From Gallionella sp. (GTDB lineage: Bacteria > Pseudomonadota > Gammaproteobacteria > Burkholderiales > Gallionellaceae), in NCBI GenBank assembly GCA_030653355.1, contig JAURZN010000183.1:1-64000 (forward strand): a stretch of DNA of 64,000 nucleotides, written 5' to 3'. The stretch's first letter is position 1. Each line of letters begins with the position of its first letter. Both the position numbers and the translations under genes were made by a program. This document shows, in pieces, positions 32,030-53,562 of the stretch. The notes beneath the pieces were generated by a model. That model made no database searches. It worked only from the letters and a program-made list of their open reading frames with translations, and was not told where the DNA came from.

Positions 32030-35000
32030 TGCTCACAGATAGAATAGTTGGGCGCGTTGGCGCAGATATCCTACAGCGCAGGCTTGCAGATTCAAGGCAG
32101 AGTGATGGCACGCTTCCTGATTCTGCAGCGCTATTCCGACTTGATAAGCTGGCTTCAGGACAAATTGCATCGATCGTGCGAGAAATTCTTGCCAACCCGG
32201 ATCTTGCCGCGCGAGTGGATTTGCGCATTCCTGCTGGGCTAGTAGAAGATCAGGACCTGCCAGAGGAAGCACTTACGACGCAGAATGCTGGCGCGGTTCG
32301 CAACGCAGGAACAACCAAAGAAGCATTGCTGACCGCTAATGGCAACGAACACAACCTAGCGGATACGTTGGGCCATGTAACCGCTCTTGGTGCTAAAGAA
32401 TTCAGGGCAAACGAAGAGGCATGGGTCGGGGCAACATGTCATGTGGCGTGCATTACTCCGAGCCTTGATGACCGCGCTGTATTCCGTGCGGCACTAAAGG
32501 GGCTGATGGCAGCTGCCGAATTGGCGCTCAACCAGCTAGGCGATTATTGCGCGCTGATAAGCGAGGCAATATCTACTCATGGTTTGCCAATTCGCGATGC
32601 TATTGGCTGGGCGCTGCCATTCGTTGGGCTTCCAAGAGATACATCACTGTTTTCCAATGCTAAGACCTACGGACAAGCAGTTGGCCCGTGGCGCAAAGCA
32701 TTCGAAAAGTTATTTTCAAATCGCGCTCCATTGTTAAATCGGTTGCGGTCCAATGGTCAGCCTCTTGATCAGGAGGAAATGCGCCAGCGACTAGATGAAA
32801 ACGCTGACTTTATCGCCGACCACGCTCGTGCTGCTCTTGAAGCGTTCATCAATGCTCCTCCTGGCGATGAGCAAACTGCAGCAGAAATTGCGGCGCTGGA
32901 ATGGGAAATGGACGGTGTTCACTATATCTTCGACAAGCCAAGAGAGCGTCAGCAGGGCTTGGCAGATTCGACTGTTCATTTTTTTGATCACGACTGCGAC
33001 GATTCGGATGTTCTTGATCAACGCTGGCGCAAGCACCTTGAGGAATTGAAGACCAGAGAGCGCCGATCAGATTGGAACGACGATGACGATACTTTCTTTG
33101 AGCTTCATCGTCGGTACATCGAGCAAAATTCAAAGCTGCACGCTCAATGGGAAAAGGTTGTCTTCGGCAAACCGATCGAGTGTTACGACTTCTTCGATGG
33201 ATTTTCCAGTGCAGCTCATCGGTTAGTGGTTAGAGCTGGGGAGCCAAAAGGTGATCGATTCTTGCGCTTTACCATCTCGAAAGGGCGCAAGGAATGGCGC
33301 GAGCGCTTCAATCATGATGTCGGCGCGTTCTTCTCGGCTATGTATCGTGGGCTCCAGGAGTTAATGGGCGCCAAAGTAGAATGGCGTATAGAACGAATGG
33401 GGGCTGCGAATTTGCCAGATCCCTTGTTCAACTACCCAGCTTTCTTCAAGAAAGAAAAAGAAATCAGGGGCGATAAACTCAAACCTGTTTCTTCGCTTGC
33501 CAAAAATGCTGTTCAAATCAAGTTTGAAGTGGCTCTGATTGAACGGATTGGCGAACATGAAGTGATTCTGGAGAAGACGCAATTGCTTTGGGTCTATCGC
33601 CCGGAGTCAATTGGCTTGTCTTTTGTCGACGATATGCTCAGGCTTAAGGAAAAGGGTTCCATCGGTTGTACCGATGTTCCGCGCCGCCTTGTAAGCAAAA
33701 AGGGTGGCGTGCAAAGCGTCTCGTTGCTCGACACTGGAACATTGGAAGCCACTTATTCGCGAGATGCAGGTTCACTGGTCCCGCCACCCAATCGGTTGCG
33801 CAGCCTGCGTGCAGAAATCAAGCGACGAATCGACGAATTAGCCTCGGATGGACGGCTATCCAATGAACAGCGTGATGAGCTGCGCGCTGCATGGGACTGC
33901 TTTGAAGCAGACTATATTCAAGCACTGGATGATTTTATTGGCTCGGGGCTTCATGGCGAAGCGGTATTGCGGCAAGCAGAGTCATTTGGCGCGCTGTTGC
34001 GCACAATGGCGATCCATGCAAGGGGTGACGTGTGCCGTTTCAAGCTGGTTGCCGAAGTTTTGTCTGTAGGCACAGTTCGGGTTTCTGGCGAACAGTCTTG
34101 CCTGATTATTCCGCCATGGCATCCAGAGAGAATGAAAGCACTGGCCGTAAAAACCCGAAGAGTCGCAGGGCTTGTGACGCATGTGTTAAATAGCAGCAAC
34201 GTCTTGTTTGGCGATAGAGGGATTTTCTTTCGCGAATTTTCGGAGGAACTTGCGCATCCGTTCTACCCTGAAATTGCTATGGTTCAGCGCGGAGGCGCGC
34301 CGATCCTCGTTTCGGAGACCAGCACGGTCAATGGTTATAGCCTTCTTGAGCAGCCAGTGCGTGGAGAAAAGGATCAATTGACGGATGTCGATCCATGGGC
34401 GGCGGCAAAGCAGGTGCGCGAGCTGCTGGAGCGTTATATTGGGTTGCAACCTCACGAAGCATCCAATCTCAGCGTCTTGCTCTACAACGCGGATGCGGCC
34501 GAATTACCGCTTGCCGTTGTGCGTGAACTTTCTAACATGCAAACGGAAACTGGTTTTCAATGCAATGTTTCCATACGGCATCGCGATCCGGTAAAACTTA
34601 GGCGTGTATACGCGGAGCTTGTGACAAAAACGGGAGATGATCCTGATTTGCCGATTGTCAGCGAGACGTCTGAAAACTTTATGTCAAAGCTGCGCATCTC
34701 GGTGGCGCCGCCTTCATCGACTCCGCCCAAGACCAACGATGGATTTCGGGCGTTTGATGTCGCGTTTCTTCATGATGTGGTCGCAAGAACTGCGGTAGTG
34801 GAATGGATTCCTGTGGATTGGACAAATGAACGTTCAAGCTTAGAGCACGCGCCATCCCGTTGGTCATATCGAAGCGTGTCGGGTGAAAACGAACTCAAGT
34901 CCACGACATTTTTAACTTGTCCTAGGCAAACCGCATCAGGCTGGGCATATATTGGGGCAATCGCCTCCGTTGTTCGTCAAACAGATGCGCCCGCAGGATC

Positions 35001-37419
35001 ACATTTTTTGCCATCCCGCCGCATTTCGTTACAAAACGAAACGTTACGCGGAACACTTGATGACGCGCACGCGTTGGCTGAATGGGTGGCGACTTACGAT
35101 GAGCTGCTTGATAAGCGGCAGCTGCAAGCAAACGGCGTTACGGTAGTTAGGTATCGCAGGGCATCCACCAATGGTCGCAACATGATTGTCAGCTCGACAT
35201 CGGAGCTTCGGTTGTTAGGTGTGCTTGCGCGGCGCAGATTGAGTGAGCTAGGCCTACCTTTTAACGCTGATGAAATGGCTGATTTGGCTGATAGGGTAAA
35301 GAAAGACGCATTGTCTGTTTCTGGTGATATCGTTCTACGAGCGGCTAAGCGCGGCGTTTCCGCAGGGGAAATGATTGGACTTGTGATGAGTCGCTATCTT
35401 CTCGAACAAGAATTCAAGGTGATTTCCGGCTCTGGAGCAAGGCCAACGTTTAGCGTCTTCTTTTTGCTAGATGACTATGCGGACTGGCTTGCGCAAAAAG
35501 AAAACCGGATTGCCGATATTCTTGGCTTGTGCGTTGAGGAAACTGAGGACGGTCCTCGTTTGCATGTGGCCGTTGTCGAATCAAAATATGTTTCGGCTTC
35601 TGGCGCAGCAGAGGCTCGACGTTCTTCGAAAGCACAGCTTATGGCCACGCTTTCAACGTTCCGCGCAGCACTGTTTGGTGATCCAGGGCGCTTGGATCGA
35701 GATGTGTGGTTGTCACGACTGGCAGATTTGTTAATTGATGCCGACATCCCACCTGGCTGCTCAGGCTTGTTGGAACGTGTTAGGGCTAAGTTGCGCGATG
35801 GCGAAGCTGAAATCTCATTGCGTGGTTACTCGCAAGTCTTTGTGCATTCCGCTGATCCGGCGGCTGCTAATTCTGGATCCGAGCAAGTTTTAATCGATGA
35901 GACTGACGGAATCCAAGCTTGGCAAGAGGTCTTTGACCGACCAGAGCTGCGTCGTCTTGTTGAATCCTATGCACGCAACGAAGATCCATCCTCAATTCGG
36001 TCAATTCTAGGGGTGGCTCAGCCATGGATTTCAGCGCATCCACGGCTACCAGCACAGCGTGTTGCATGGATAGACATGGTGGAGCAGCTTGCTTCCAGTG
36101 GTGGATCTGTGGTCGAGTCTAAGGAGACTCCACAATCGTTCGTCTCAGTTCCTGTTCAACAACGAAATCAGTCTGAGACGCCTGTTAATGTTGTTCAGCC
36201 TTTGGAATCAATTGAGTCAGCGTTCGCATCATCTGGATCAAAGCTTTCTGAGCTTATCTCCGCAAAGGCAGCCGTACTTTCGGCTGATATTGATGAGCGT
36301 GAAGCATGGGCAGATGAAATAACTCGTAAACTTAAATCCGCATTGAACGGATATGGCCTTCAGGCATCCGTTTTAGGGACTCGACTTACTCCAAATGGCT
36401 GCTTGGTCAGGCTTGCCGGTTCGGATCGGCTACGCGTTGAAGATATTGAATCAAAACGGACACAGCTGTTAACAACCCACGCAATCAATTTAGTTACAGT
36501 ACAGCCAAAACCTGGTGAGATTGTCGTCACGATTGCGGGGGCAAAGAGACAGTCTGTTTCGCTTTGGGATTTATGGGCACGCAGAAGCATTAACAGAAAT
36601 TCGGCTGGCATTAACACCTCGTTTATTCTCGGATTGCAAGAAATAAATGGGGCACTGCTATATCTTAATTTAGGTAGCGAATTCGGCGGACTCTCGGCGC
36701 ATGAGCCACATTCACTAGTTGCTGGAGCAACTGGAAGTGGCAAGTCTGTACTCATACAAGCCTTGCTTCTTGATATTGCGGCAACTAATCCAAAAGAACT
36801 TGCTCAGATCGTCTTGATCGACCCAAAGATGGGTGTCGACTATTCGGCTCTGGAAGATTTGCCGCATATGCGTGAACTGATTGTAACGACAAAAGAGCGA
36901 GCGACAGAAGTGCTGGGCGCGCTCGTTGAGGAAATGGAAAACCGATATAGATTATTTGCTGCTGCTCGCGCTCGTGATTTGGCGACCTTTAATGCAAAAT
37001 CTGCTCCATCAGACAAATTGCCAATGGTATTTCTAGTTCATGACGAATTCGCTGATTGGATGTTTGACGATACCTACAAAGGTGCGGTTAGCGCGGCTGT
37101 TCAAAGGCTGGGTGTTAAAGCACGTGCAGCCGGCATTCACTTAATATTCGCGGCTCAGCGGCCGGACAAAGACGTCATGCCGATGCAGCTGCGAGAAAAC
37201 TTAGGTAATAGACTTATTCTCAAGGTTGCTAGTGAGGCTACTTCGAAGATCGCCCTTGATCGGCCTGGCGCAGAGCTGCTGCTGGGCAAGGGGCATCTAG
37301 CGGCGAAACTTAATGGTGAGCAGGGGCTTGTGTTTGCGCAAGCACCATTCTTATCAGACGACGACATTTTAGATGCAGTATGTGCAATAAAGAACGATAA
37401 CTCGATAACCGTTTATTGA
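32026..37419 (+). CDS. SspH/DptH-like large protein with C-terminal FtsK/HerA-type translocase domain
   Basis: 1797 aa; Walker A SLVAGATGSGKSVLIQALLLDIA; VLIDPKMGVDYSALEDLPH; VFLVHDEFADWM; IHLIFAAQRPDKDVMPMQLRENLGNRLILKV. Confidence 0.7.
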   Translation: MMLTDRIVGRVGADILQRRLADSRQSDGTLPDSAALFRLDKLASGQIASIVREILANPDLAARVDLRIPAGLVEDQDLPEEALTTQNAGAVRNAGTTKEALLTANGNEHNLADTLGHVTALGAKEFRANEEAWVGATCHVACITPSLDDRAVFRAALKGLMAAAELALNQLGDYCALISEAISTHGLPIRDAIGWALPFVGLPRDTSLFSNAKTYGQAVGPWRKAFEKLFSNRAPLLNRLRSNGQPLDQEEMRQRLDENADFIADHARAALEAFINAPPGDEQTAAEIAALEWEMDGVHYIFDKPRERQQGLADSTVHFFDHDCDDSDVLDQRWRKHLEELKTRERRSDWNDDDDTFFELHRRYIEQNSKLHAQWEKVVFGKPIECYDFFDGFSSAAHRLVVRAGEPKGDRFLRFTISKGRKEWRERFNHDVGAFFSAMYRGLQELMGAKVEWRIERMGAANLPDPLFNYPAFFKKEKEIRGDKLKPVSSLAKNAVQIKFEVALIERIGEHEVILEKTQLLWVYRPESIGLSFVDDMLRLKEKGSIGCTDVPRRLVSKKGGVQSVSLLDTGTLEATYSRDAGSLVPPPNRLRSLRAEIKRRIDELASDGRLSNEQRDELRAAWDCFEADYIQALDDFIGSGLHGEAVLRQAESFGALLRTMAIHARGDVCRFKLVAEVLSVGTVRVSGEQSCLIIPPWHPERMKALAVKTRRVAGLVTHVLNSSNVLFGDRGIFFREFSEELAHPFYPEIAMVQRGGAPILVSETSTVNGYSLLEQPVRGEKDQLTDVDPWAAAKQVRELLERYIGLQPHEASNLSVLLYNADAAELPLAVVRELSNMQTETGFQCNVSIRHRDPVKLRRVYAELVTKTGDDPDLPIVSETSENFMSKLRISVAPPSSTPPKTNDGFRAFDVAFLHDVVARTAVVEWIPVDWTNERSSLEHAPSRWSYRSVSGENELKSTTFLTCPRQTASGWAYIGAIASVVRQTDAPAGSHFLPSRRISLQNETLRGTLDDAHALAEWVATYDELLDKRQLQANGVTVVRYRRASTNGRNMIVSSTSELRLLGVLARRRLSELGLPFNADEMADLADRVKKDALSVSGDIVLRAAKRGVSAGEMIGLVMSRYLLEQEFKVISGSGARPTFSVFFLLDDYADWLAQKENRIADILGLCVEETEDGPRLHVAVVESKYVSASGAAEARRSSKAQLMATLSTFRAALFGDPGRLDRDVWLSRLADLLIDADIPPGCSGLLERVRAKLRDGEAEISLRGYSQVFVHSADPAAANSGSEQVLIDETDGIQAWQEVFDRPELRRLVESYARNEDPSSIRSILGVAQPWISAHPRLPAQRVAWIDMVEQLASSGGSVVESKETPQSFVSVPVQQRNQSETPVNVVQPLESIESAFASSGSKLSELISAKAAVLSADIDEREAWADEITRKLKSALNGYGLQASVLGTRLTPNGCLVRLAGSDRLRVEDIESKRTQLLTTHAINLVTVQPKPGEIVVTIAGAKRQSVSLWDLWARRSINRNSAGINTSFILGLQEINGALLYLNLGSEFGGLSAHEPHSLVAGATGSGKSVLIQALLLDIAATNPKELAQIVLIDPKMGVDYSALEDLPHMRELIVTTKERATEVLGALVEEMENRYRLFAAARARDLATFNAKSAPSDKLPMVFLVHDEFADWMFDDTYKGAVSAAVQRLGVKARAAGIHLIFAAQRPDKDVMPMQLRENLGNRLILKVASEATSKIALDRPGAELLLGKGHLAAKLNGEQGLVFAQAPFLSDDDILDAVCAIKNDNSITVY

Positions 37420-37820
37420 AAATAGCCAAAAGAATGACTGACCTGATATCAGATGGGATCTCGTGTGAACGCATCCTTCTGGCTATCAGAAAGATTGAGA
37501 GTGGTGTGCGTATTCTGCTGAAACCCGCCAACCATAATGTTCGCAAACACGCCGCCTATAATGACTAGGTGCAGGCCAGTGAAAATGGTGTAAAAGCGCC
37601 ACTTGTTGTCTGGGCGAGTGTAAAAACCAAATGACGGTTTTTTGCCGTGCAATAATGATGGGTAATGGCACGTTTGTCCAAAAGCAGTCCATCGCTATTT
37701 CCCTCACTTTAGTATGGCAGGCAGCTGTGTTCATATACACTCAAAATGCGTGGTTGTTTTGAGATAACGACAGACCAAATTCCATTTATTTTTCATAGAA
37801 AAAAACGAAATAAGGAGAGC

Positions 37821-38246
37821 ATGATGGATCAAGATGCATTGAAAATTGCAATCAAAGAAATTGCGGACAAACACTGGGAAATGAATCAGCAGCCAATATT
37901 GTTGAGCGAGGTCGCACCAATTCTTATGAAGAAAGCGGAGGGGGGCGACTACCGGACTTTGCTTGATGGAAAATCTTTAAAGATGTTCATCAAGGACACG
38001 GGGGATAAGCATGGCTACCGATTAGTTGTGCACCCCACACAAGATGCTAAAGTTGCGCTAGCTCCCTTGAGTTCAATATTTGAATTCGCCGTCGCTGTCA
38101 CTGAAAAATTGCCGAAGAAGTTCGAAACCATCCGCAGGAGTGAAAACAAAGTTGCTGCGCTTTTGGAAATTCTATCGGTTCTGCCGGAAGATGAGTTAGC
38201 AAAAATTTCGATTCCAGTTTCGGCTCTCGTGAAACTGCTCAAATAA
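37821..38246 (+). CDS. Uncharacterised protein, possible OST-HTH/LOTUS-like N-terminal fold
   Basis: LLSEVAPILMKKAEGGDYRTLLDGKSLKMFIKDTGDKHGYRLVVHP; taaggagagc RBS. Confidence 0.55.
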   Translation: MMDQDALKIAIKEIADKHWEMNQQPILLSEVAPILMKKAEGGDYRTLLDGKSLKMFIKDTGDKHGYRLVVHPTQDAKVALAPLSSIFEFAVAVTEKLPKKFETIRRSENKVAALLEILSVLPEDELAKISIPVSALVKLLK

Positions 38247-39080
38247 ATGAACGTGTTAGTGTGCTTGATATCATCCCTAGGCAACGTTGCAGAAGTTGTA
38301 GCGCGTCAGCGAGAACGGTTAATTCCGCAGGATTTATTCAAGAAGAAAGGCCCTGACTATCCCGTAAATTTCAAGGTTTCAGTCTACAACCCCAATAAGG
38401 AAAGCATAAGCTTTGAAAAATTTCTGCTGCGCGAGGCTAAGACTAGCGAAGCTGTGATTCTGCTGGTTGAAGAAATACACTCGTGTTTGGTGGTACCTAT
38501 CGAAAATGCCGTTTTTGCCGCGACCTTCGATGTAAAAGATGAAAGAGTCAGTAATTTCAAGAACTTTTTTGGAAACCATTTTTCTCAACTATTTCGGAAT
38601 TTTTTTGTCGTAAAAACTTTAATGGACGATGCAGAAAAGCTGCAGGCGATGATTCTTCCCCTCCGAAATTTCGATGCGCCTGCATTACGTGAAATGGCTC
38701 GGTTATCGCGTGAAAACAGCAGATGCGCCAATTTCACTCTGCCTTTGGAGGTTCAGCTCGCGGAGATCGTCAAGCTAAGAGTCCCGCGCAAAAAATCGAA
38801 ATCCCCACTTAAATACTTTGTTGACCAGAAGGGAAAGCACTTTGTATATGGCTACGAAAATCACGCCAGTATCGACACCGGAAAACCACACGTCGCGGCA
38901 TGTGAATTCAACGGACACTTCAGATTCGGGAAGAGGATAGATCCACGTCGCCATTACAATGTGAGCTTCGGTGACGGGGACACGACACATATTTCTGGAG
39001 ATTTTCCAGATTGCCATGGGGTGGTACACACAGTCCCCAAAAAAAGCCATCTCAATATGTTTGCCAACGATTTTTACTAG
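38247..39080 (+). CDS. Uncharacterised 277-aa protein
   Basis: ORF begins directly after 37821..38246 stop; no recognised motif. Confidence 0.6.
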   Translation: MNVLVCLISSLGNVAEVVARQRERLIPQDLFKKKGPDYPVNFKVSVYNPNKESISFEKFLLREAKTSEAVILLVEEIHSCLVVPIENAVFAATFDVKDERVSNFKNFFGNHFSQLFRNFFVVKTLMDDAEKLQAMILPLRNFDAPALREMARLSRENSRCANFTLPLEVQLAEIVKLRVPRKKSKSPLKYFVDQKGKHFVYGYENHASIDTGKPHVAACEFNGHFRFGKRIDPRRHYNVSFGDGDTTHISGDFPDCHGVVHTVPKKSHLNMFANDFY

Positions 39081-39494: not shown

Positions 39495-41420
39495 TTATTG
39501 ATCTCGTACAACCAATACAAGCGCACCATGCTTCTGCATATCCGTTTTTAATGATTCGGTGTCGGCTGGATTGCGCGCTATAAGACCAATAATGTGTTGA
39601 ACCTCTTCTCCATTCGCATCTTTACCAATACATGTCATAGTGGTGTATCCATTCTTGTTAACGTCTGGCACGTGCAGCGAAGCTGGAAGGGTGGCTGCAT
39701 TCTTAAGTCGCGTAAGTGTTTCCTGAGATTTTTGATGTATGGTGTTCTTATCGATGCCTACAATAGCCAAAGCTAGTTCGTCAATTACAGCTTCACTCAG
39801 CCCAAGCCGTGAGATAGAGTTTCCGTCTTTGTCGCGCCCCATGTAGCAGACCCCACCCTCTAGTTGCAGGGTCGGCAACACTAAAGGCTGCAACTTTGAC
39901 TCAATATTGAACGTATACGCTTCCACTGAAACAGCGAACGTGGCTGGCATCTGAGCAACCAACCCGACACGTCCAAGGTCGGCCAGTAACTTCTGTTGTA
40001 ATTCAATCGCATGAGTTTCACGAAGTCGAACCAGAATTTTGTGAGTTCCGCCATCTGCGAGTAGTGCATTCAACTCCTCCCGTCTAAGCGTTTGGATGTC
40101 TTTAAGATCCCAGCGAATCCACATGCGACGATTATCTGGCAAGATGACGATAGGGGTCTTGGTTCCGGCGGACTTGTATGTCCATGCTTTGGGTGAGAGT
40201 TGCTCAAACTTTCCGCTAATCATCAGCGCTTGACGGAAGTCAGATCGCGCAAGATCGCATGCAGGTGTCAATATTACGAGCACGTCCGAATCGACGGGGG
40301 GTGGTGTAGCACCTGCTACTGGAGTTTGCAGCGAAGTACGTTTGACGAGAATGTCTCCGAATGCTACCGGCGCACCTGACTCCGTACCCGGCACTTCAAG
40401 TCGCTTCGGGTTCTGATAGATAGTTTGGTACACAAGCTGCTGCAAGTCAGGTGAGCCAGCAATGTAGGGTGGCGGATAGGAGTCAGGCTGAATCTTATTT
40501 AATTCCTTTGCGGCCAGGATTGTTGCTGCATCGTGTTCAATTTCGTGCTGTAGCATTCGATCAAACACATCCAGCGCATAACTGCCAAGAGGCTGGCCTT
40601 CAAAGTTCAGAAGCAATTGTCGGATCTGAGCGTAGTCAGCAAGATCTAGGCGTCGTATTTTTGTAAGAAATCGAGATTTTGCTTCATCCAGTCCAACGTC
40701 CCAACTATGAAGAAACGATGCGAGGCGCAGCGAATCTTCATTATGAAGTGCTAATCTGGTGAGCACTTGGCTAAATCGTGTTTCGTTGATGAGATCATTC
40801 TTGCTTAAAACTCGGAACATGGCACCAAGCAAGTGAGCCTTGTCTCTGAAATACGCTTTTTTATCTGCAAGTCGGGGGCTGCTTGACATTAAAATCACCA
40901 AGGGAGGTGACACCTCCCTTCCTACGAGTAAATTTTTAAGTCGATCCAGCGAAGCCTCAAGGTCTGAGTCATTTTGGGCAGAACCAAGAAACAAATCGGC
41001 AAAAATGATGGAAACAGTTTTTCCAATATCTGGAATATTCCGACCGGTTGGTATAGTTTCTATACCAACCGCACGTAGCGCGGCTTCCAGTTTTGACAAG
41101 AAAGCTTTGTCAGTCTTGGACGCTTGGTTGTATTCTTCGAAGAGAGGCAGACTCAGTTCCGGTCGCAGTTTTTCGCGCAGGCCCCAAATTGTTGCAACAA
41201 AATCGTTCGATGACTTAAGTTCATCAGCATCGATCTCATCGTACCTAGGAAATACTTCAACAATGAGAGCCTTATCATCCTCCCCGACATCTGCGAAGAA
41301 ATTTTCCCAAGCTGCCCCTTGTTTTACCAAGTCCTGGGCCGTTGGCACATCGTCATAACCGTCATCGACAATAAGTGCGGTCGTCAGCTTACGATCAGAA
41401 AGCAATTCGTTGAGATTCAT
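39495..41420 (-). CDS. Receiver-like domain protein with large uncharacterised C-terminal region
   Basis: REC-like residues: LIVDD, SIIFADLFLG, LVILMSSSP, FRVLSKNDL; about 400-aa C-terminus; overlaps the kinase gene by 4 bp. Confidence 0.65.
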   Translation of the reverse strand: MNLNELLSDRKLTTALIVDDGYDDVPTAQDLVKQGAAWENFFADVGEDDKALIVEVFPRYDEIDADELKSSNDFVATIWGLREKLRPELSLPLFEEYNQASKTDKAFLSKLEAALRAVGIETIPTGRNIPDIGKTVSIIFADLFLGSAQNDSDLEASLDRLKNLLVGREVSPPLVILMSSSPRLADKKAYFRDKAHLLGAMFRVLSKNDLINETRFSQVLTRLALHNEDSLRLASFLHSWDVGLDEAKSRFLTKIRRLDLADYAQIRQLLLNFEGQPLGSYALDVFDRMLQHEIEHDAATILAAKELNKIQPDSYPPPYIAGSPDLQQLVYQTIYQNPKRLEVPGTESGAPVAFGDILVKRTSLQTPVAGATPPPVDSDVLVILTPACDLARSDFRQALMISGKFEQLSPKAWTYKSAGTKTPIVILPDNRRMWIRWDLKDIQTLRREELNALLADGGTHKILVRLRETHAIELQQKLLADLGRVGLVAQMPATFAVSVEAYTFNIESKLQPLVLPTLQLEGGVCYMGRDKDGNSISRLGLSEAVIDELALAIVGIDKNTIHQKSQETLTRLKNAATLPASLHVPDVNKNGYTTMTCIGKDANGEEVQHIIGLIARNPADTESLKTDMQKHGALVLVVRDQ

Positions 41421-43843
41421 TTAACTGTTACTCCCTCAGGTAGCTCAAGCACGAATTCATGAAGGCGCTTGGTGTCTGCGTCCGCTCGCGACGATAGAGT
41501 AAGTTTGCCACCCAAATAGGACGCATTCTCACGAGCAATATAAAGACCCAGTCCTCTTCGTTTGCTTTTTTCTTTCATGGACCAGAAAGGTCGAAACACT
41601 TTTTCTTGATTTTCTATGGCGATACCGCGACCGTTATCACTGAAATAAATTACCATCGGATCAGTATCTATCTTGATGGATATTATTGGTACATAGCGAG
41701 TTTCTCGTGATGCACGCATTTCCATCCAATAGATGGAGTTGGAAATAAGGTTCTCCAGTATTTGAATCAGCATTCCCTTCACCACGCGTATCCGAACAGG
41801 GGAGCTGGGTGGCTTGAAATTGAGGTTGATGCTGTGTCTCCGAAACTGTGCAGCATGTCCTATTTTGAGTTCCTCAATCAGTTCTCCAAGATCAAATACC
41901 TCCGAGCGCTGCCGTCCGGACACACTGAGCTGATCTAGGACGCTAAGCCGTTTGGATACGCTCTTCATTTCGATGCGTAGTGTATCCAGCTTGCTGCGTA
42001 TCTCTGGCGGCATTTCCTTGCCACGAAGCGCCTCGATCGCTTCCAGCGCACTTTCGGACGCACGTGCTAATTCGTGAGCGACAACCTCAACCATAAGGCC
42101 GACACCGGCCATTTGAACCATCTGCCGCCCATCGGCCTCTACCTCATCAATACGTTGTTGTGCACGTGCGGCCAAGTCTTGGAACTCTGCAAAAGCCTCC
42201 TGTAATTCGTCAACAACGTCCTCATGTCCCTTTGGTAATATCTTACGTACACGACTGAGCGCGACTTTAGCTCGTGACTCTAGCTTGCTGACTTCCGCCT
42301 TCACGTCACCTAAGTCAAGGGGCAGATGTTTGTGACGCCGATCAACATCTTTCATAAAATCCCAAAACAGCACTTGAATTACATGCTGGAGCAAGGTAAT
42401 GAATACTTGCTGTTCGGGTGTCGTGCGGAGGCCCTCACGATTCGTCTGATCCAAGAGTTGTGGGTTGTTGGTGCGCGTGATATTAATGTGGCCGACAAAT
42501 TGCATCTTGTTAAGTGTGTAGCCAGAACGCCCCATTGCGCGACGATCAAGTCCCAGCCAGTCGTCGTCGTCATCGCCGTAAGGAAAGACTCGGAATCCGT
42601 CGCGAAACAACAGAATGCCGGACCACTTTTTTTGAAGTTCTCGGACAGCGCGTTGATCCCCTATAGAGTCAATTCGTGCTAAGCGCTGACGGTTGTACCA
42701 ATAGACCTGAAAATCGAAATCACCAACCGAAGTCAGTGCCGAGAGAGGAACGGCTTCCGAAGTTCCGATAACCGCTCCCTCAATGTCAGGTAATGTGAGG
42801 TTCGTTACATCAATTTCGTGTGGGTGCGGGAAGCCGAGGTCAAAAGCTTCGAGCGTGACGCGCAAAACAGGCTCGCCGTTGAGTATGCGGTATGTACCTT
42901 TGAAGCCTGCGTGTGCATGCTCTAGCAGATGCTTGTCCATCCACGGGATGTTGACGCGACTGCCATTCCAAAGTAAAGCGATACGCGGTTTGGATTTTTG
43001 ATCTACAAAGGGATCAGTAATACGTGCAAAATCGAACTCTGCATACAACTTTAAACGGTTCTCTGTCCAGTCTTCAGTGAGATCGCTAATAGTGAGAACC
43101 GTACCACTCCAAGCGGTACTTGGCTTCATTCCATCGGTGAAAGCCTTTACCGGCACATCTTCGATCATTGCGTCAAGATTCGCGAACTCTCGCCAGTCAA
43201 TTTCTAACCGGTTCATCGCTGTGTCGGTCTGCTTTGCGGTCTCCAGCTTCAAATGCTCGCCGAGCCGCATGGCCGACAAACGTCCGATGCCTTTTTCACC
43301 TAGATAGGGCGATTTGACACTTTTTGCTTCAATCGCTTGATCGACTTCCCGTTTTCTGGATGGTGTGCCAATCACCAAGTAATTCTTTTTCAGTTCCTCA
43401 AGCGACATGCCTGAACCTGTGTCGGCAATTTCAATCGTGTTAAGACTCCGGTAAGCGGCATCAAGCTTGCCCAAAAATTCATCAACGCTTTTTGGTGTTC
43501 CAAGACAATCTCGGAATGCCTTCACTAACTCGGGATCGGCGGCTGGATCAAGTTGTAAAATCGTCAAATCTAACAGACTCGCAGTGGTTTCGGCCTGCTC
43601 GTTGCGCGACACGTTCTGGTAGGCATCAGACGAGGCGATTGATGAAGCTTTGCTGCGCATGCGCAAATAACTGTTCCGGCGTAGAACGACTTTGAACCTG
43701 ATTTCAACGCCATTTTTAGACCTGGCATCGAATGCATTTTTTATCAGTTCGTAGAACGCAATGGTGTCGGAGCTGATAAGTTCAGACCCTAGTTCTAGAA
43801 CGGTTCGTGCGGATATCTTAAACACGCGGGAATACCTGACCAA
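41417..43843 (-). CDS. Dual-GHKL protein: N-terminal MORC/Hsp90-type ATPase plus C-terminal histidine-kinase module
   Basis: N-term FYELIKNAFDARSKNG, IEIADTGSGMS, GEKGIGRLSAMRLG; C-term H-box VEVVAHELARA, ENLISNSIYWM, YFSDNGRGIAIENQEKVFRPFWSMKEKSKRRGLGLYIAR. Confidence 0.85.
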   Translation of the reverse strand: MVRYSRVFKISARTVLELGSELISSDTIAFYELIKNAFDARSKNGVEIRFKVVLRRNSYLRMRSKASSIASSDAYQNVSRNEQAETTASLLDLTILQLDPAADPELVKAFRDCLGTPKSVDEFLGKLDAAYRSLNTIEIADTGSGMSLEELKKNYLVIGTPSRKREVDQAIEAKSVKSPYLGEKGIGRLSAMRLGEHLKLETAKQTDTAMNRLEIDWREFANLDAMIEDVPVKAFTDGMKPSTAWSGTVLTISDLTEDWTENRLKLYAEFDFARITDPFVDQKSKPRIALLWNGSRVNIPWMDKHLLEHAHAGFKGTYRILNGEPVLRVTLEAFDLGFPHPHEIDVTNLTLPDIEGAVIGTSEAVPLSALTSVGDFDFQVYWYNRQRLARIDSIGDQRAVRELQKKWSGILLFRDGFRVFPYGDDDDDWLGLDRRAMGRSGYTLNKMQFVGHINITRTNNPQLLDQTNREGLRTTPEQQVFITLLQHVIQVLFWDFMKDVDRRHKHLPLDLGDVKAEVSKLESRAKVALSRVRKILPKGHEDVVDELQEAFAEFQDLAARAQQRIDEVEADGRQMVQMAGVGLMVEVVAHELARASESALEAIEALRGKEMPPEIRSKLDTLRIEMKSVSKRLSVLDQLSVSGRQRSEVFDLGELIEELKIGHAAQFRRHSINLNFKPPSSPVRIRVVKGMLIQILENLISNSIYWMEMRASRETRYVPIISIKIDTDPMVIYFSDNGRGIAIENQEKVFRPFWSMKEKSKRRGLGLYIARENASYLGGKLTLSSRADADTKRLHEFVLELPEGVTVK

Positions 43844-44015: not shown

Positions 44016-44852
44016 TTACTTATGACAAATCAGGCATGCTCCACCACCCTCATCCTCACCATATAAGTCATCAATATCTATGTTACTTTGGACTGGCCGT
44101 AGCGGATTAACTGGGCGTTTGCTCAAATCTCGCTGCCGCCTACGCTCATAATCTTCAATTATCTGGTTTGCTCGTATAGGGTTTTCGAGGTCACTCAGAG
44201 GCCCTCCCTGTGTCCAGGTAAAAGGCGAGCCGTGTTCCAACGCACTTTTCTCATAGTTCTTGGCTTCTTCAAATGCTGCTGGATGACGTTCTTTTAAGCG
44301 AACCCATTCAATTTTTTGTTGATAAAAGCAAAACGTACATCCGCTGCGTGATCGCCACTCATAATACTTTGGATAGCCGACACCTGAAGCTTCTAAAATA
44401 TCCATGACCCCCTGCTTATCTATACCATCCTCTCTGAAGGGGAGCTTCACGATTAAGTTATCTTCATTTGAAATATACCCCTGGCGGTATTCTTCATCAG
44501 ATCGGATCGCAACATAACTTGTTACGACATCTCCTGCTTTGAGCATTGGATTAACCCATTGCTTAAATGGTAATAACTTAAGCTGCCGAGTGCACCAGCG
44601 AGTGTGAGGAGAGGGTAAAAAGTGATTGTATTCTCGTAACCAGAAATCAAAATCACGAGTAGGATTAAGGCGCAGGATAGGCTTCCCTAGAAAACCTTCA
44701 AGTCGTCCAAGAAAGTCATAAACTTCCGGCAACTCTTTCCCTGTGTCAGTAAAAAAATAATCAATATTCAATTCAGGATGATGTTGGCGCATGTATACCG
44801 CAAGGGCAGCGCTATCTTTACCCCCAGAAACTCCTAGAACATGACGTTCCAT
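44016..44852 (-). CDS. sspD: SspD/DndC-like PAPS-reductase-family sulfurtransferase
   Basis: PP-loop VLGVSGGKDSAALAVYM; YFFTDTGKELPEVYDFL; TRWCTRQLK; RSRSGCTFCFYQQKIEW. Confidence 0.82.
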   Translation of the reverse strand: MERHVLGVSGGKDSAALAVYMRQHHPELNIDYFFTDTGKELPEVYDFLGRLEGFLGKPILRLNPTRDFDFWLREYNHFLPSPHTRWCTRQLKLLPFKQWVNPMLKAGDVVTSYVAIRSDEEYRQGYISNEDNLIVKLPFREDGIDKQGVMDILEASGVGYPKYYEWRSRSGCTFCFYQQKIEWVRLKERHPAAFEEAKNYEKSALEHGSPFTWTQGGPLSDLENPIRANQIIEDYERRRQRDLSKRPVNPLRPVQSNIDIDDLYGEDEGGGACLICHK

Positions 44853-44854
44853 CC

Positions 44855-47800
44855 TCAGCCCTCTTTTCTTTGGTCTATGGCTTGAGTGCCAGCCTGAGCA
44901 AGTGCAGCAAGGAATACCTCGGGCCTAACATTATTCATATGAGTCATAATTATTTCAGCCAAATCACGAACGTGACTCTGTTCTTGCTCAGAAATATCGA
45001 ACGACTCTGAGACTGTTTTTCCGTCTTTACCAGTTCCGAAAACCACGGCTATCGCCTGCCTTGTTGGATTGCGATCACGTACTGCTGCGAGTACTTCTAC
45101 CTGGCGGAATCGCAAAGCCAAGTCGGCAAGAGAAATCAATGCAACATCAATATCTTGATCATTCCAATCGCGAGATGGCTTGTTGATAGCTAAGCCCAAT
45201 AAACTCTCGTAATATTCTCGTTTATTCTCAAATGTTGCTAACCGAATTGCGAAACCGTCTAATCTCAAATCACCAGAAATGCCAGAGACAACTTTGGCGC
45301 GATGCTTGATTAACGATAAGTCATCAAATTCAGCATCAAGAGCTACTAGCATTTTTGAAATGACTCTGCGCAACATCAAATCGTATGCATCCGTCATTTC
45401 AGAAAGAGATGCACCGAGTCCTTCAATATATTTATCGACCTCCCCCCCGAATAATAATGGGAGGTCGATAAACAGCACTTTATGAGGATCGCTAGCCCGT
45501 AGGAGTACATCACGAATCTTGCGCGTTGTATCGGATATGCTTGTAGTTCTCTGCGCCCAAACAGGCAGTCCATACACAATAGAAACTAGTGTTCTCGCTG
45601 AATCCAGTGGGTCTAGATGGCTAGTTCGCCCAAGCCTATTTTGCATTTGCTTATTCAGACCTTCCAGAATATCGCGATGATATTCATCAAGTTGAACATG
45701 ACGGAGAGAAATGCGTGATGGCTCTTGCAACGCTTCGTCAATATCAGCTTCTTGCAACTCAGGTACAAACATTCCATTTTTGTAGACAGCCACGCGATAT
45801 TTATTTGCTAAAACGAAAGCAAGCATGAGTATTGGCAGAACACCCTCACGAATACCAAACGGTGGTTTTGTCCACAGTTGATAGAGTGAGGACAAATCTA
45901 TTCGATCACCCGTTCCAAATATTAGCTGATCTGCGGCAGCCCACGCTTTTACAAACGTTTTGCTCTTTCCACTGTTCTCGGGTGGTAGAAAGGAAAATTG
46001 CCCTGCTTCATTTTTCCGGTATAAAGAAGTTGATCCTATCAAAGTATGAAAAAGTCCTGCTTCTGCAGGAAAGCCTTCGAAGCCCAAAGCTGCGAGCCCT
46101 TCGTTATTAAGCATCGCATATAATAATTCACGCCTCGCCTTGGAGCTACTTCCAGAGGGTTTGTCGCGGTTTATCAACTCGCTCAAAATAAAAGGAGTAT
46201 CGACATATAATTTGTCAGCCAAATCAGATGCTAAGGACGAGAGTCCGATTTGACCCGGATTGGGCAAATACTCACCGTTGAGATGCCAATTTGCGTTAAT
46301 GAAGGCGTCTCTAAGTTCATTTTCTAACTGCGCTCGAATTGTAGATACACGCCCGCTAATTTCTCTCCTGGCAACAGCGTCACCATCAAGCTCTGGATGC
46401 TGTTTTCGGACAGTTTCAATGGCCAGCAACTCACGCCCTAGCTCCCTGACAATTTCCCCATTTTTTGAAGACCCAAGCACAACTGGGTATACAGAACATT
46501 TTTTAGATGCAATCTTACTGCGATTATCTAATTGCTGAATTGTTGTATCTCGATCAGGGATTGCCAATACAAATTGGCCAAAACTACCATCTGATGGTTC
46601 AAAACTTGTAACCTGCGAATCAAGTTCTGATACCTGGCACAACGCAACCTTCATCCAGCGCAATGTCCCGTGAATGTAGTAGTGCCGCTTTGCGATAACG
46701 GGAAATAAGTTGCTGAGTTTAGTCAACGTTTTAAGATTTGGATCGCCAATAGATCCTAGTGCATCATTCACAGCCGAATCAATATCAAAATCACTACCCG
46801 CAAACACTCCCCACGCGCCTAAGTGCTTGCGATGAACAATAACGGACCAACCGCGAAGGTCTTCTAGTGCAGTCTCGATACTAGTTTCGGGATGCTCTGG
46901 CAAGCATGAATAAAGCGTTTCATTATCCGCCGCAAGACCAGACCCGTTTCGAAACAGTTCGATTAACGCAATGGTCTTCGTTAACTGCGCATGTATTGAG
47001 CGTCCCTTGGCTTCCGCACGCTCTACAGCTTCTGCTGCCTGGGCCCATCTATGCCCGTCTGGCGAGGCGAGAATCGCTGTTTCAAGATTGATTCTGAGGT
47101 AGTCCCAATAGGTAGAGGGTAGGTACAGGCTCTTTTCATTAGCGGTGGTTGACTGTAAAAAGTCCATGAACCCTTTCGGTTCAACTGAAACAAGAAAGCC
47201 AAATGTACTACGTTCATTCTGCCCAAAACGACGTTTTGAAATCGGTCCTAGCAGGGCTGCGGTGGCAGGGTGCAATGGCCAGCAATTATCAAGCCTTGCC
47301 CAAAAATCAGGATTTACGGTTGGCCTGCGCATTTTTATTGAGAGCGCGATTTTCTTCGACAGCGATTTTGTCCATGGATGCGGCAAGCTTGTATCAATGG
47401 CCTTGCCGGTAAGCTCTACCAACTCATCACTTCCCGCTATGAGCGGAATATCAACAAATCGCCCCTGTATCTTTGACCACTCTTCACGAGCATCGCGCCC
47501 CAACTTGGTTGCATATTGCTCGAATGCTTGATGAAGAATGCCAACAACTACCAATTTTCCACGGCTACGGCTAGCCATCTCAGCCAACTCTTGGTAAAAG
47601 TACACATCGTCCCCATTGTGTACCGCAGACTCTAGGAATTTACCTAACTCGTCAATTACGACCAAAACCCCTGCATTCTCCCCAGACTCGGCTTCTCTCA
47701 CTAATATTTCCAGCAAATCTGCGGAAGTAACATTGGCAATACTTTTGTTTTGCGATTCAGCGGGGAGTGATTTGGTAAGTGCTCGATATAGTTCTTGAAC

Positions 47801-48187
47801 AACGCTAGTTCTTCTACCTACAACAGGGATAACCAGCCAGCCATTTTTACCTGAATTGAATGCTTCCAAAACCAAGTTGTCATTGTTTAGGCCGAGCACA
47901 TGCTGGGCAGTTTCACGAATAGACGGTTGATGATGTACCAAGGAACAAAGTGCCAGTGCAAGGGATGACTTTCCTCCGCCATAAGGCCCTGTCCATGTAA
48001 AAGCCCTCTGCTTAGTTTCTAAAATCTGGCGCGCAGTACCCTCAAGAACAGCTCTTGCAGTTCCTTGGCAAATATATCCCTGCAGGCCGTCTTCCCGACC
48101 AAAATCTGTATCTATTCTTATCGATCGTTGAAACTGCCTAGAGATGCTAACCACATCTGCTAGTACCTGAATAACCTTGGCCTTCAT
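44855..48187 (-). CDS. sspC: SspC-like large P-loop ATPase
   Basis: 1110 aa; Walker A FTWTGPYGGGKSSLALALCSL; Walker B VLVVIDELGKFLE; between DUF4007 and PAPS-reductase genes. Confidence 0.72.
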   Translation of the reverse strand: MKAKVIQVLADVVSISRQFQRSIRIDTDFGREDGLQGYICQGTARAVLEGTARQILETKQRAFTWTGPYGGGKSSLALALCSLVHHQPSIRETAQHVLGLNNDNLVLEAFNSGKNGWLVIPVVGRRTSVVQELYRALTKSLPAESQNKSIANVTSADLLEILVREAESGENAGVLVVIDELGKFLESAVHNGDDVYFYQELAEMASRSRGKLVVVGILHQAFEQYATKLGRDAREEWSKIQGRFVDIPLIAGSDELVELTGKAIDTSLPHPWTKSLSKKIALSIKMRRPTVNPDFWARLDNCWPLHPATAALLGPISKRRFGQNERSTFGFLVSVEPKGFMDFLQSTTANEKSLYLPSTYWDYLRINLETAILASPDGHRWAQAAEAVERAEAKGRSIHAQLTKTIALIELFRNGSGLAADNETLYSCLPEHPETSIETALEDLRGWSVIVHRKHLGAWGVFAGSDFDIDSAVNDALGSIGDPNLKTLTKLSNLFPVIAKRHYYIHGTLRWMKVALCQVSELDSQVTSFEPSDGSFGQFVLAIPDRDTTIQQLDNRSKIASKKCSVYPVVLGSSKNGEIVRELGRELLAIETVRKQHPELDGDAVARREISGRVSTIRAQLENELRDAFINANWHLNGEYLPNPGQIGLSSLASDLADKLYVDTPFILSELINRDKPSGSSSKARRELLYAMLNNEGLAALGFEGFPAEAGLFHTLIGSTSLYRKNEAGQFSFLPPENSGKSKTFVKAWAAADQLIFGTGDRIDLSSLYQLWTKPPFGIREGVLPILMLAFVLANKYRVAVYKNGMFVPELQEADIDEALQEPSRISLRHVQLDEYHRDILEGLNKQMQNRLGRTSHLDPLDSARTLVSIVYGLPVWAQRTTSISDTTRKIRDVLLRASDPHKVLFIDLPLLFGGEVDKYIEGLGASLSEMTDAYDLMLRRVISKMLVALDAEFDDLSLIKHRAKVVSGISGDLRLDGFAIRLATFENKREYYESLLGLAINKPSRDWNDQDIDVALISLADLALRFRQVEVLAAVRDRNPTRQAIAVVFGTGKDGKTVSESFDISEQEQSHVRDLAEIIMTHMNNVRPEVFLAALAQAGTQAIDQRKEG

Positions 48188-49095
48188 GCTTTACTCCCAA
48201 GAACGTCTATTGGAGACATTGCGCCATTTACACAAACAACGTGTCGCAGACCTGCGGTATCAGACCACACATATCTCCGATGAGAAATCGCCTCAAGGCT
48301 GATGAGTCGCTCTGCAATTGAATTTTCATCCAGCTTAAAAACTCGCCCGGGGGAACCGGGATCATACGCAATAGACTCAAAGGATAAGGTATTCTGATTA
48401 GGAGCAACACATTTCCAAAATTCAATAAGGGCGTATAGAAACACTTCGTCAGGAAGAGTCGATTTAGCCCCTCGCCGAAACTCATACAGTCCGTCTGTGC
48501 TCATTTGGATCAACCCTAACTCCCCAAGCATCGGCTCTGCAATGTCTTCCATTGTGGCATTTCTTGACTTTGGAACATAGCTCCTCAGAAACACCTCAAT
48601 ATCACGATCCAGTGAATTTTCGGATACCTTTATCCTCGGTGTTTTTTCATCAAGATACTCAATCAAGCCTTCTTTAACTTGCTTTGCGGAAAAGCTTTGT
48701 TCGCTTAAATGATTAAATACCCAGTACCAAGTTGTGGCGCGGGGAATAGCTTCCGTTCGTCCCGCCAAATTCCAGTGCATGAGCCAAGAGGTTGCATAAT
48801 GTTCGCAGTAGGGATCTAGCCCATCATTAGCAAATATTTTTTTACCGAGGTCTGTTGCTATATGCCCACCATTTTTGCTTTCGATAATCCCACAAGCAAG
48901 AGCCCAATGACGAATTGAGCCAACCATGTTTTTTCCAACGCCAAAGGTGACTATTGCGTCGTCGCTAGAGAACACCCCCTTTTTTTCGTAACTAACTGCA
49001 TCAAAAGCCTTTTTTAGCCACATCTGCCTGAGTGGGAAAGTTTCATGCCCGGAAAAATGTGGCACATAGTTAATATCAAAAATTACACTTCGCAT
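48184..49095 (-). CDS. sspB: DUF4007 family protein, SspB-like
   Basis: N-terminus HFSGHETFPLRQMWLKKAFDAV...VTFGVGKNMVGSIRHWALACGII is characteristic of DUF4007; overlaps the SspC-like gene. Confidence 0.82.
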   Translation of the reverse strand: MRSVIFDINYVPHFSGHETFPLRQMWLKKAFDAVSYEKKGVFSSDDAIVTFGVGKNMVGSIRHWALACGIIESKNGGHIATDLGKKIFANDGLDPYCEHYATSWLMHWNLAGRTEAIPRATTWYWVFNHLSEQSFSAKQVKEGLIEYLDEKTPRIKVSENSLDRDIEVFLRSYVPKSRNATMEDIAEPMLGELGLIQMSTDGLYEFRRGAKSTLPDEVFLYALIEFWKCVAPNQNTLSFESIAYDPGSPGRVFKLDENSIAERLISLEAISHRRYVWSDTAGLRHVVCVNGAMSPIDVLGSKA

Positions 49096-49830: not shown

Positions 49831-50052
49831 TCATCTTATTTGCTTCAGTTGATACCCATGTCGCATTCGACTGCGCTCAATTTTAGCTACCTCACGCATG
49901 GCATCCTCTTCTTCAACAAAGATCTGCTGTTTCATTCCGCCTCGTCTGTTGGTCAGTCCAAACCAATGTCGTCTGAGAACGTAGTCGCCCAGCAAATCCC
50001 GGCTCAGTTCCAGCACATAACCGCGTCCTGATGATCTAAAGTCTAGTCTCAT
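49831..50052 (-). CDS. WGR domain-containing protein
   Basis: MRLDFRSSGRGYVLELSRDLLGDYVLRRHWFGLTNRRGGMKQQIFVEEEDAMREVAKIERSRMRHGYQLKQIR; overlaps the recombinase 3' end. Confidence 0.75.
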   Translation of the reverse strand: MRLDFRSSGRGYVLELSRDLLGDYVLRRHWFGLTNRRGGMKQQIFVEEEDAMREVAKIERSRMRHGYQLKQIR

Positions 50053-52036
50053 TTTCTCCCCCAAATCCAGCCAACTCAACCGCGCGCCACAGATTTTCAT
50101 CGGAGGTGTCCGTGTATATGCTGGTCGTTTGCAGACTGGTATGCCCAAGCAAACGCTGGACGATATTGAGCGGCACACCAGATAGTGCCAAATGACTTCC
50201 ACAAGTGTGGCGCAACCAATGTGCTGTGGCGTGATCAAATGCCTTGGCTTCGATATGCTTGCCATCCATCATCAGGGATTGTGCAATCTCCCCAAAAAAT
50301 GAACGCAAGGACTTGGATAGCGCGCTGGTCGTCACAGAACCTGTCCCGATCTCGCTTGAAACAAGCGGGGTGTCTGGTGGATTGCTGGTGATGTCCAGGC
50401 TCAACCCGCGATACTCGAAATAGGTTTGCAACGCCTGTATGACTTCGCTGGAAAGTGGCACAGCGCGCCATTTACCCCCTTTGCCACAAACTTTGAGCAT
50501 CCAGCGTACACCGATCTCATTTGAGAGCGGCATCGTGTACATGCGCGATACTTTTGCATCAACCAGCTCGGATATGCGCAGGCCGGTTGCGTAGGCGAAT
50601 GGCAGCACAAAACGTAATCTCGCCGAACAGCTGGTTGCGGGTAGTTGACGCAAACAAGCCATCAAATAATTCCATTGCCCCGCAGAAAACGCCCGCATGA
50701 ATTCGACATCAGGATTTGACCGGGAATCAGCAACAACCAGCGATTTGGACACCGCGCTCCACGGATTGAATGAGCAATACTGCACGCGCACCAACCATTC
50801 AAACAGGTTGCCGACAACAGTCAGTGCGTACCGAACGCTGCCAGGCGAGAGCGCCCCATCAAACGGCTTCCATGCCGGATCGTGCCGCTCCCTCTTTTTT
50901 GCGCTAATCCATTCAGATTGCGTGATGCGAAAAGGCCAGTTGTCGGGTTCGGTTCTGCCTATCATGGACAGCCAGTCTCGATAGGATGCGCAATCCTCAA
51001 CTGTCAAATCAGACAAAGCCTTGTCGCGCTCAATAATCGCCCATAACAGCATCTTTTCCGCTTCCTTTTGATAGGCGCGCTGAGTGTTTGGATTGCCGGA
51101 CTTTGTGGCAAGCCAGGCGAACACGGCTTGATAGTCGTTTGCGGCAGCAATACGCGGCACACCATGATAACGATTCGATCCAACCGTACCATCCAAATCA
51201 ACGGGTACGGCAAAGGCCTCCAGTGGTACAACACGTGTTTCCCTGTTTCGGTCTTGAGCTCGCAACGAGGGTGCTACCGTGCGCGCAGGGACAAGTGAGC
51301 GTTGTGGCAATGCGCCTAGCGATGATTCGTAACCTTGCAGCCACGCCACAATTCGTGCCGCGCCCTTGTTGCCCAACCTAGGCACGTCTATCCACCAGCG
51401 ATAACCGCGTACAGCAATCCTGTCGACTAAATGTCCTATTGTCGGTAAGCCGGCCAACACAAAACGGTTGGAGATCACCGGGTCAAACCAAGCCGCGATC
51501 AAGTCCTCACGCACCGGATCGGTGGCAATCAGTGGCTCAATCCACTTTAACGCAAGCAACTGCTTGTCGATCAGTCGTTGCCTTTTATTTTGCCCGGTAT
51601 CGACTGCTTGTGGGTAGGCATCCAGGTAAGAGCGAATGAGTTCTTTTTCTGTAAAGAATCCATCAGGATCAAACTCAGCGCGGTAATCATCAAGGGTGGG
51701 GGCAGGGGAGCGCGCGGATTCCCCGCCGCCCGCACCAATATGCATCCTGATTAGATGGGCTTCGCGATGCTTCCCACTTCGCAGCGCAGCCTGTCTGAGC
51801 GTATCCCGAATCCAGGTCAGTGTTGTTTTTGCGCGACGCAAATCCATCCCGATTTCAAGATAGCGATCAGACATTTCGCCAATATCCATACCAAGAATGG
51901 CCGCCCTGAAAAAGGCAATGTGATGGCGGCCGATTTTCCGTTCGACCGATTTTTTGGATATTGCCCAATCTCCACTCAATGCAGATCTCCCCTTTTGCAA
52001 AGCATAGTTAGATGCACTGCCCACAGACATACCCAC
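50036..52036 (-). CDS. Large tyrosine recombinase/integrase with extra N-terminal domain (DUF3701-like)
   Basis: C-terminal LPFAYATGLRISELVDA, CGKGGKWRAVPL, HWLRHTCGSHLALSGVPLNIVQRLLGHTSLQTTSIYTDT; about 300 extra N-terminal residues. Confidence 0.88.
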   Translation of the reverse strand: MGMSVGSASNYALQKGRSALSGDWAISKKSVERKIGRHHIAFFRAAILGMDIGEMSDRYLEIGMDLRRAKTTLTWIRDTLRQAALRSGKHREAHLIRMHIGAGGGESARSPAPTLDDYRAEFDPDGFFTEKELIRSYLDAYPQAVDTGQNKRQRLIDKQLLALKWIEPLIATDPVREDLIAAWFDPVISNRFVLAGLPTIGHLVDRIAVRGYRWWIDVPRLGNKGAARIVAWLQGYESSLGALPQRSLVPARTVAPSLRAQDRNRETRVVPLEAFAVPVDLDGTVGSNRYHGVPRIAAANDYQAVFAWLATKSGNPNTQRAYQKEAEKMLLWAIIERDKALSDLTVEDCASYRDWLSMIGRTEPDNWPFRITQSEWISAKKRERHDPAWKPFDGALSPGSVRYALTVVGNLFEWLVRVQYCSFNPWSAVSKSLVVADSRSNPDVEFMRAFSAGQWNYLMACLRQLPATSCSARLRFVLPFAYATGLRISELVDAKVSRMYTMPLSNEIGVRWMLKVCGKGGKWRAVPLSSEVIQALQTYFEYRGLSLDITSNPPDTPLVSSEIGTGSVTTSALSKSLRSFFGEIAQSLMMDGKHIEAKAFDHATAHWLRHTCGSHLALSGVPLNIVQRLLGHTSLQTTSIYTDTSDENLWRAVELAGFGGENETRL

Positions 52037-52051
52037 GGTTTTTGTGGATAA

Positions 52052-52285: not shown

Positions 52286-52297
52286 AATCAGCGCCTC

Positions 52298-52564: not shown

Positions 52565-52565
52565 G

Positions 52566-53543: not shown

Positions 53544-53562
53544 TCCTCCTAAAAATTTCACA

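Follow-up and report, generated by a model that had tools for sequence, protein, structure and literature searches.

Phage defence by Detocs, a defensive two-component system, involves phosphate transfer from a kinase to a receiver-effector protein. Kinases that combine HATPase_c_3, HEF_HK and HATPase_c domains were described in 2021 beside Response_reg_2 proteins and were enriched near type II restriction-modification (R-M) genes (PMC8011034). The SspABCD-SspFGH phosphorothioation (PT) system of Wang et al. 2021 (PMC8092258) was reported with no mention of a histidine kinase or two-component system, and a two-component system near the Ssp genes of A. baumannii global clone 2 is mentioned in passing (PMC12421847), in passages that do not analyze the two genes, their relatives or their distribution. 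Here, a stretch of 64,000 nucleotides from Gallionella sp. (contig JAURZN010000183.1, positions 1 to 64,000 of the forward strand, hereafter the window) was analyzed, in which a dual-GHKL histidine kinase (HK) and its receiver partner (RR) are located in an Ssp locus. Pairs of this type have been described previously next to R-M genes; the new part is a dedicated Ssp branch together with an output domain that is common to three DNA-mark chemistries. The pair was not analyzed in the Ssp literature that was searched, with most subscription papers and all preprints outside its scope.

The initial annotation had proposed a new way to trigger or gate a phosphorothioation defence. The architecture itself is not new, as the 2021 study (PMC8011034) already reported, in the vicinity of R-M genes, a kinase with GHKL, dimerization and histidine phosphotransfer (DHp) and HATPase domains and a diverged receiver partner. 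The HEF_HK/Response_reg_2 pair (PF19191/PF19192) of that study and the HK-RR pair share the order HATPase_c_3, DHp, HATPase_c, an adjacent diverged receiver protein, a location beside DNA-modification genes and a homologous output domain with CD and RxG residues. They differ in that the window HK falls below the HEF_HK cut-off (15.0 versus 24.1 bits; three relatives reach 14.2-18.8 bits) and that Response_reg_2 (PF19192) gives no match in the window RR or the Ssp relatives tested, whereas viral RRs of the C5-methylase branch do match. Kinases of the window type are also shorter (approximately 780-810 aa versus approximately 1000 aa), the RR has an extra tail, and the partner is phosphorothioation instead of a C5 methylase. 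Compared with the system of Wang et al., the window likewise contains SspB, C, D, F, G and H, and HK-RR is an addition; unlike that system, other loci pair HK-RR and SspBCD without detected SspFGH. MORC/paraMORC GHKL ATPases (Iyer et al. 2008, PMC2292703) resemble HK in their N-terminal GHKL ATPase and R-M contexts, but these families carry nuclease, TIR or other C-termini where HK has a histidine-kinase core, and receivers are not mentioned in that study.

The kinase and its receiver partner

The two genes and their domains are located as follows.

41417-43843, minus strand: HK, 808-aa dual-GHKL sensor histidine kinase, TTG start (Pfam HATPase_c_3 and HATPase_c above cut-off)
43154-43843, minus strand: HK residues 1-230, N-terminal MORC/Hsp90-type ATP-binding domain, the proposed input domain (HATPase_c_3, endoplasmin/GRP94 N-domain matches, invariant motifs)
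42404-43153, minus strand: HK residues 231-480, stretch after the N-terminal ATPase, presumed S5-like transducer (conserved blocks)
41894-42118, minus strand: HK residues 576-650, DHp with predicted phospho-acceptor His590-Glu591 (H590 conserved throughout the Ssp and methylase branches)
41435-41770, minus strand: HK residues 692-803, C-terminal kinase ATPase with N698, N702, D736xGxG and GLGL (HATPase_c, PDB histidine kinases)
39495-41420, minus strand: RR, 641-aa receiver and output protein, ATG start, 4-bp overlap with HK
40746-41420, minus strand: RR residues 1-225, divergent receiver (D19/D20, D142, S179, K207) with a long insert between beta1 and the rest
40995-40997, minus strand: codon of RR D142, the predicted phospho-acceptor
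40386-40745, minus strand: RR residues 226-345, helical linker (helices in a low-confidence AlphaFold2 (AF2) model)
39921-40385, minus strand: RR residues 346-500, conserved output domain with G355, C388-D389 and R484xG486 (hhalign, 19-protein alignment)
39498-39920, minus strand: RR residues 501-641, C-terminal tail of the Ssp branch only (missing from methylase-branch RRs in the alignment)

The open reading frames (ORFs), their coordinates, the 4-bp overlap and the motifs quoted in the initial annotation were recovered exactly. The overlap reads ATGA and contains the HK stop (TGA) and the RR start (ATG). Within HK, the motifs NAFDA (36-40), ADTGSGMS (140-147), GEKGIGRLS (182-190) and VVAHELARA (587-595, containing H590-E591) were located. 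The reading of HK as a dual-GHKL kinase was borne out by Pfam matches above cut-off for HATPase_c_3 at residues 135-227 (E=5.7e-17) and HATPase_c at residues 692-803 (E=5.2e-18). The C-terminal half resembles solved histidine kinases in the PDB (best E 8e-13) and the N-terminus gives a weak match to the endoplasmin/GRP94 N-domain (E 0.004-0.009). An alignment of 11 family members revealed that the N-terminal ATP site (E32, N36, D141xG143xG145, G182xKGxG(R)), the C-terminal ATP site (N698, N702, DNGxG, GLGL) and H590 are invariant, and residues 231-480 contain the conserved blocks RxxPYGxxxDDWLxLD...DQTNREGL. H590-E591 is invariant, and HK thus displays the HEF_HK combination of HATPase_c_3, a DHp in which His is followed by an acidic residue, and HATPase_c.

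The receiver motifs of RR are found at residues 18-20 (VDD), 140-146 (FADLFLG), 178-181 (MSSS) and 206-209 (SKND), which provides the residue order of a receiver, i.e. two acidic residues, the phospho-acceptor Asp, Thr/Ser and Lys. D142 and K207 are invariant in alignments of 11 and 15 sequences, and among the 15 RRs D20 is invariant while D19 and S179 are nearly so. A profile of the receiver with the long insert removed was compared with 25 receiver candidates of the same genome, a few of them from a wrong frame, and yielded an hhalign score of 40.3 (P 89.8), while the best of 100 column shuffles reached 13.6. The assignment as a receiver partner is therefore upheld even though RR found no match in Pfam, including PF00072, or in NCBIfam, PADLOC or PHROG. 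This database search also agrees with the earlier description of approximately 400 uncharacterized residues in place of a DNA-binding domain; no recognizable DNA-binding domain was found in profile searches, and a canonical OmpR-type regulator was rejected as the identity of RR because Pfam detects no DNA-binding output domain. A PDB profile search with 15 RRs gave nothing significant, and no known effector domain of the Detocs type follows the receiver according to Pfam, NCBIfam and PADLOC, of which the PADLOC copy may predate Detocs. A MazF/PemK barrel was suggested by eye for the output domain (GDI..VLVILTP) and was dismissed, as its hhalign score stayed at the level of the shuffled null.

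The ratios of non-synonymous to synonymous substitutions (dN/dS) were calculated against the pair of locus L003, whose HK and RR are 85-88% identical to those of the window. Values of 0.09 for HK and 0.13 for RR, low in every domain, indicate purifying selection, and thus both genes are maintained.

Branches of the family and the shared output domain

Relatives of the pair fall into branches that accompany different DNA-modification genes. In the N4/N6 branch, HKs of approximately 770 aa and RRs of 440-480 aa are located beside N6/N4 methylases in viral contigs and genomes (L041-L044, L048). The C5 branch (L050-L063, L125-L136) contains HKs of approximately 1000 aa and Response_reg_2 RRs, many of them beside C5 methylases, and Ssp genes were present in none of seven PF19192 loci within the stretch read. 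A phylogeny of 41 HKs places the Ssp kinases in a single clade with a support of 100/100.

Profile comparisons identify the RR output domain as homologous and common to all three branches. The Ssp and N4/N6 domains were aligned by hhalign with P 96.6 and E 6.7e-10 and the Ssp and C5 domains with P 97.4 and E 1.4e-11, while full-length RRs of the Ssp and N4/N6 branches gave P 97.6 and E 2.8e-12. This shared C-terminal domain is a trait found here and lies outside the Pfam definition of PF19192; the alignment of C5-branch RRs was too diverse to be used for scanning. The earlier proposal of a novel Ssp effector has to be narrowed, as the same domain occurs in R-M-linked regulators (E about 1e-9 to 1e-11) and is not specific to Ssp. 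Across 19 RRs of the different branches, invariance is limited to two Asp residues of the receiver, one Gly, one Cys and the RxG motif, and the Asp that follows the Cys is nearly invariant. An AF2 model of the RR relative L133, built from 19 sequences, reached a mean predicted local distance difference test score (pLDDT) of 67.8, with most of the output domain at 75-94. In this model the domain is largely beta with about eight strands; the second strand is followed by a short helix that holds the CD pair, and RxG comes after the last helix. The response regulators RcsB and PorX are included in the sub-threshold Foldseek list for the model. In one viral contig, a DUF4365 protein (L043:14011-15057) follows the set of N6/N4 methylase, HK and RR and is a candidate partner of the N4/N6 branch.

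Association with the Ssp genes

The initial assignment to an Ssp-type locus was confirmed by very strong PADLOC matches for six Ssp proteins.

48184-49095, minus strand: SspB (DUF4007; DUF4007 E=8.4e-91, PADLOC SspB E=2.5e-111)
44855-48187, minus strand: SspC ATPase (PADLOC SspC 1353 bits)
44016-44852, minus strand: SspD, PAPS-reductase-like (PADLOC SspD E=1.1e-138)
28608-30509, plus strand: SspF (PADLOC SspF E=2.3e-234)
30506-32029, plus strand: SspG (PADLOC SspG E=5.2e-218)
32026-37419, plus strand: SspH, FtsK/HerA-type (PADLOC SspH 2457 bits)

SspB-C-D lie directly upstream of HK-RR on the minus strand. SspF-G-H are encoded on the plus strand, and the window thus holds the modification and the restriction genes of the system together. 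The locus has no SspA/IscS cysteine desulfurase: a genome search with PF00266 gave no match on the contig of the window and several class V aminotransferases elsewhere in the genome; the V. anguillarum Ssp system is served by IscS (PMC8092258). Two small ORFs of 166 and 277 aa (37746-39080, plus strand, GC 0.43-0.45) are located between SspH and RR, have no family match, are missing from the otherwise collinear L003 and likely represent an insertion. Beside SspB, an integrase-like ORF (50036-52036) and a ParM/StbA-like ORF (52566-53672), both recognized by eye, suggest a mobile element at 50036-53672.

Co-occurrence with phosphorothioation genes had been set beforehand as a test and was clearly observed. 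Among 72,556 plasmids, tblastn with HK identified 16 at E<1e-30, each of which also encodes SspD in the same cluster. SspD is found on 65 of the 72,556 plasmids, so that approximately 0.014 overlapping records (16 x 65/72,556) would be expected by chance. A second query, the A. baumannii HK, recovered the same 16 plasmids followed by a gap to E=4e-21, where the next-best HK, from Rhizobium, is accompanied by dcm, Vsr and type II restriction genes. After removal of near-copies, the 16 plasmids represent about 11-12 independent lineages. In annotated neighborhoods, HK-RR was found beside SspBCD in Agrobacterium, Rhizorhabdus, Ensifer, Sinorhizobium, Devosia, Methylorubrum, Polaromonas and Acinetobacter, and an unannotated R. 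leguminosarum plasmid and the viral contig L040 also carry both. In Chlorohelix (Chloroflexota), where SspBCD is likewise present, the pair separates sspC from sspD, with the genes in one orientation and overlapping by short stretches; in the annotated loci it often occupies its own strand and follows no single promoter arrangement. The loci are found on plasmids and integrase-bearing elements. In A. baumannii, SspBCD and HK-RR (L037:4452-9990) lie beside TnsB, TniQ and an endonuclease, which suggests carriage by a Tn7-like element. Sampling of genomes with RR (class) and HK (phylum) detected only the window's own genome, with the HK search scoring two candidates per genome and able to miss distant ones, so that the family is considered rare. 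A viral scan with one family alignment returned no loci.

Four loci contain SspBCD and HK-RR without SspF, SspG or SspH according to BLAST: L037 of A. baumannii, L026 of M. extorquens, L039 of R. leguminosarum and the viral contig L040. SspE was not seen among their annotated or scanned neighbors. Two further Ssp and HK-RR loci without SspFGH encode a protein of 805 aa whose match to GHKL is weak (L011:6499-8916 and L013:14209-16629, 69% identical to each other), a possible alternative partner. At L039:21690-25594, a 533-aa protein with a receiver-like start (LLIEDDRERR) and matches to TCAD9 and an APH-type kinase adjoins an unknown 772-aa protein; both are convergent to the Ssp and HK-RR genes and may constitute another signaling-type conflict system.

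Comparison of 15 loci revealed that pairwise distances of HK and RR correlate closely (r=0.94), whereas those of HK and SspB-H do so weakly (r 0.27-0.50) and the Ssp proteins among themselves mostly reach 0.8-0.99. Over this wider range, the history of HK-RR is close to neither Ssp block. Between L003 and the window, HK, RR and SspFGH are 84-90% identical and SspB and SspC just 45-48%, which has the appearance of an exchange of modification genes within a conserved locus. These data show the autonomy of the module and fit a dedicated, separately moving pair that plugs into Ssp loci.

Proposed working and alternatives

We consider it somewhat probable that HK-RR is a phosphorelay dedicated to Ssp loci, where it would either license restriction or carry it out. 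The N-terminal MORC/Hsp90-type ATPase would dimerize on DNA or on a DNA-bound Ssp complex and report the modification status. The kinase core would then phosphorylate His590, from which the phosphate is predicted, based on the invariant residues, to be transferred to Asp142 of RR. Phosphorylated RR, via its G..CD..RxG domain, might itself provide a restriction or abortive output or might license SspFGH. Cousins of the pair plug into C5- and N4/N6-methylase loci. Such a working is like that of Detocs, compared by description alone, while the sensor differs, as do the Detocs effectors, which are of known types. A licensing switch is plausible because SspFGH damages host DNA in the absence of PT (PMC8092258). 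We lean towards a direct output of RR because several SspBCD loci with HK-RR have no detected SspE or SspFGH; most sspBCD loci in a published survey have no known restriction partner (PMC8092258). HK-RR accompanies a share of the Ssp loci, in some of them with no other partner detected, and is a concrete candidate for filling part of this gap. Its occurrence next to three DNA-mark chemistries points to a general signaling device for modification-based immunity, for which E32, H590, D142, C388 and R484 form a short list of candidate key residues.

Several observations weigh against this phosphorelay. In models and Foldseek searches, the output domain matched neither a catalytic signature nor a known fold, including the nuclease and NADase folds that the initial annotation had suggested looking for in the C-terminal region. 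The L133 model had no Foldseek match at E<=0.001 in PDB or BFVD, and the AF2 model of the window RR (8 sequences, pLDDT 47.9) was poor, and no fold was derived from it. A single Cys, Asp and Arg would by themselves not prove an enzyme. The absence of SspE is based on PADLOC scans of selected neighbors and on record annotations, which do not amount to an exhaustive search. The SspBCD-SspFGH system of V. anguillarum protects its host, with no HK-RR pair reported there (PMC8092258), which marks the pair as accessory, and none of ten SspBCD loci sampled across the phylum contained it, so that it represents an optional module.

Alternatively, RR could be a regulator that controls the expression or activity of SspBCD/SspFGH, its output domain binding DNA or an Ssp protein, for example to keep restriction off until the genome is modified. 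This explanation is possible but rather unlikely. Timing control would be valuable, as SspFGH unrestrained by PT harms the cell (PMC8092258), the output domain shows no visible enzyme signature, and a regulatory role was proposed for the R-M-linked cousins by Bellieny-Rabelo et al. (PMC8011034). However, RR has no recognizable DNA-binding domain, the pair is present with SspBCD where SspE and SspFGH were not detected, a single output domain serves unrelated modification systems, and the genes often stand on their own strand, not bound to one promoter arrangement.

A broader version of the phosphorelay is put forward only tentatively and is, on balance, doubtful. HK-RR might be a reusable self/non-self switch in which a MORC-type clamp kinase reads a host mark of any chemistry (backbone sulfur, 5-methylcytosine, N4/N6-methyl) and in which restriction or abortive infection is effected directly by the output domain, possibly through a new fold; some orphan sspBCD loci would then have their missing restriction partner in this pair.

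It is improbable that the N-terminal GHKL domain of HK senses nucleoside triphosphate (NTP) pools or a phage protein instead of DNA, with HK-RR being a separate abortive-infection unit that shares the island. Hsp90-type domains bind ATP and proteins, NTP sensing was suggested by the authors of the 2021 study (PMC8011034), and the weak correlation described above ties the pair only loosely to the Ssp genes. On the other hand, the HK clade is exclusive to Ssp among plasmids and its cousins to methylases, which speaks for a role linked to DNA modification, and in Chlorohelix the pair is interleaved in the ssp gene order. Clustering of a mere passenger in mobile defense islands without functional coupling is highly improbable: the loci do reside on plasmids, integrase-bearing elements and a Tn7-like element, and only 16 of the 65 SspD plasmids carry HK-RR, but the 16 of 16 association far exceeds the chance expectation, HK-RR is inserted inside the ssp gene order in Chlorohelix, and the neighbors are alike from Chloroflexota to Proteobacteria in lineages that remain independent after near-copy removal.

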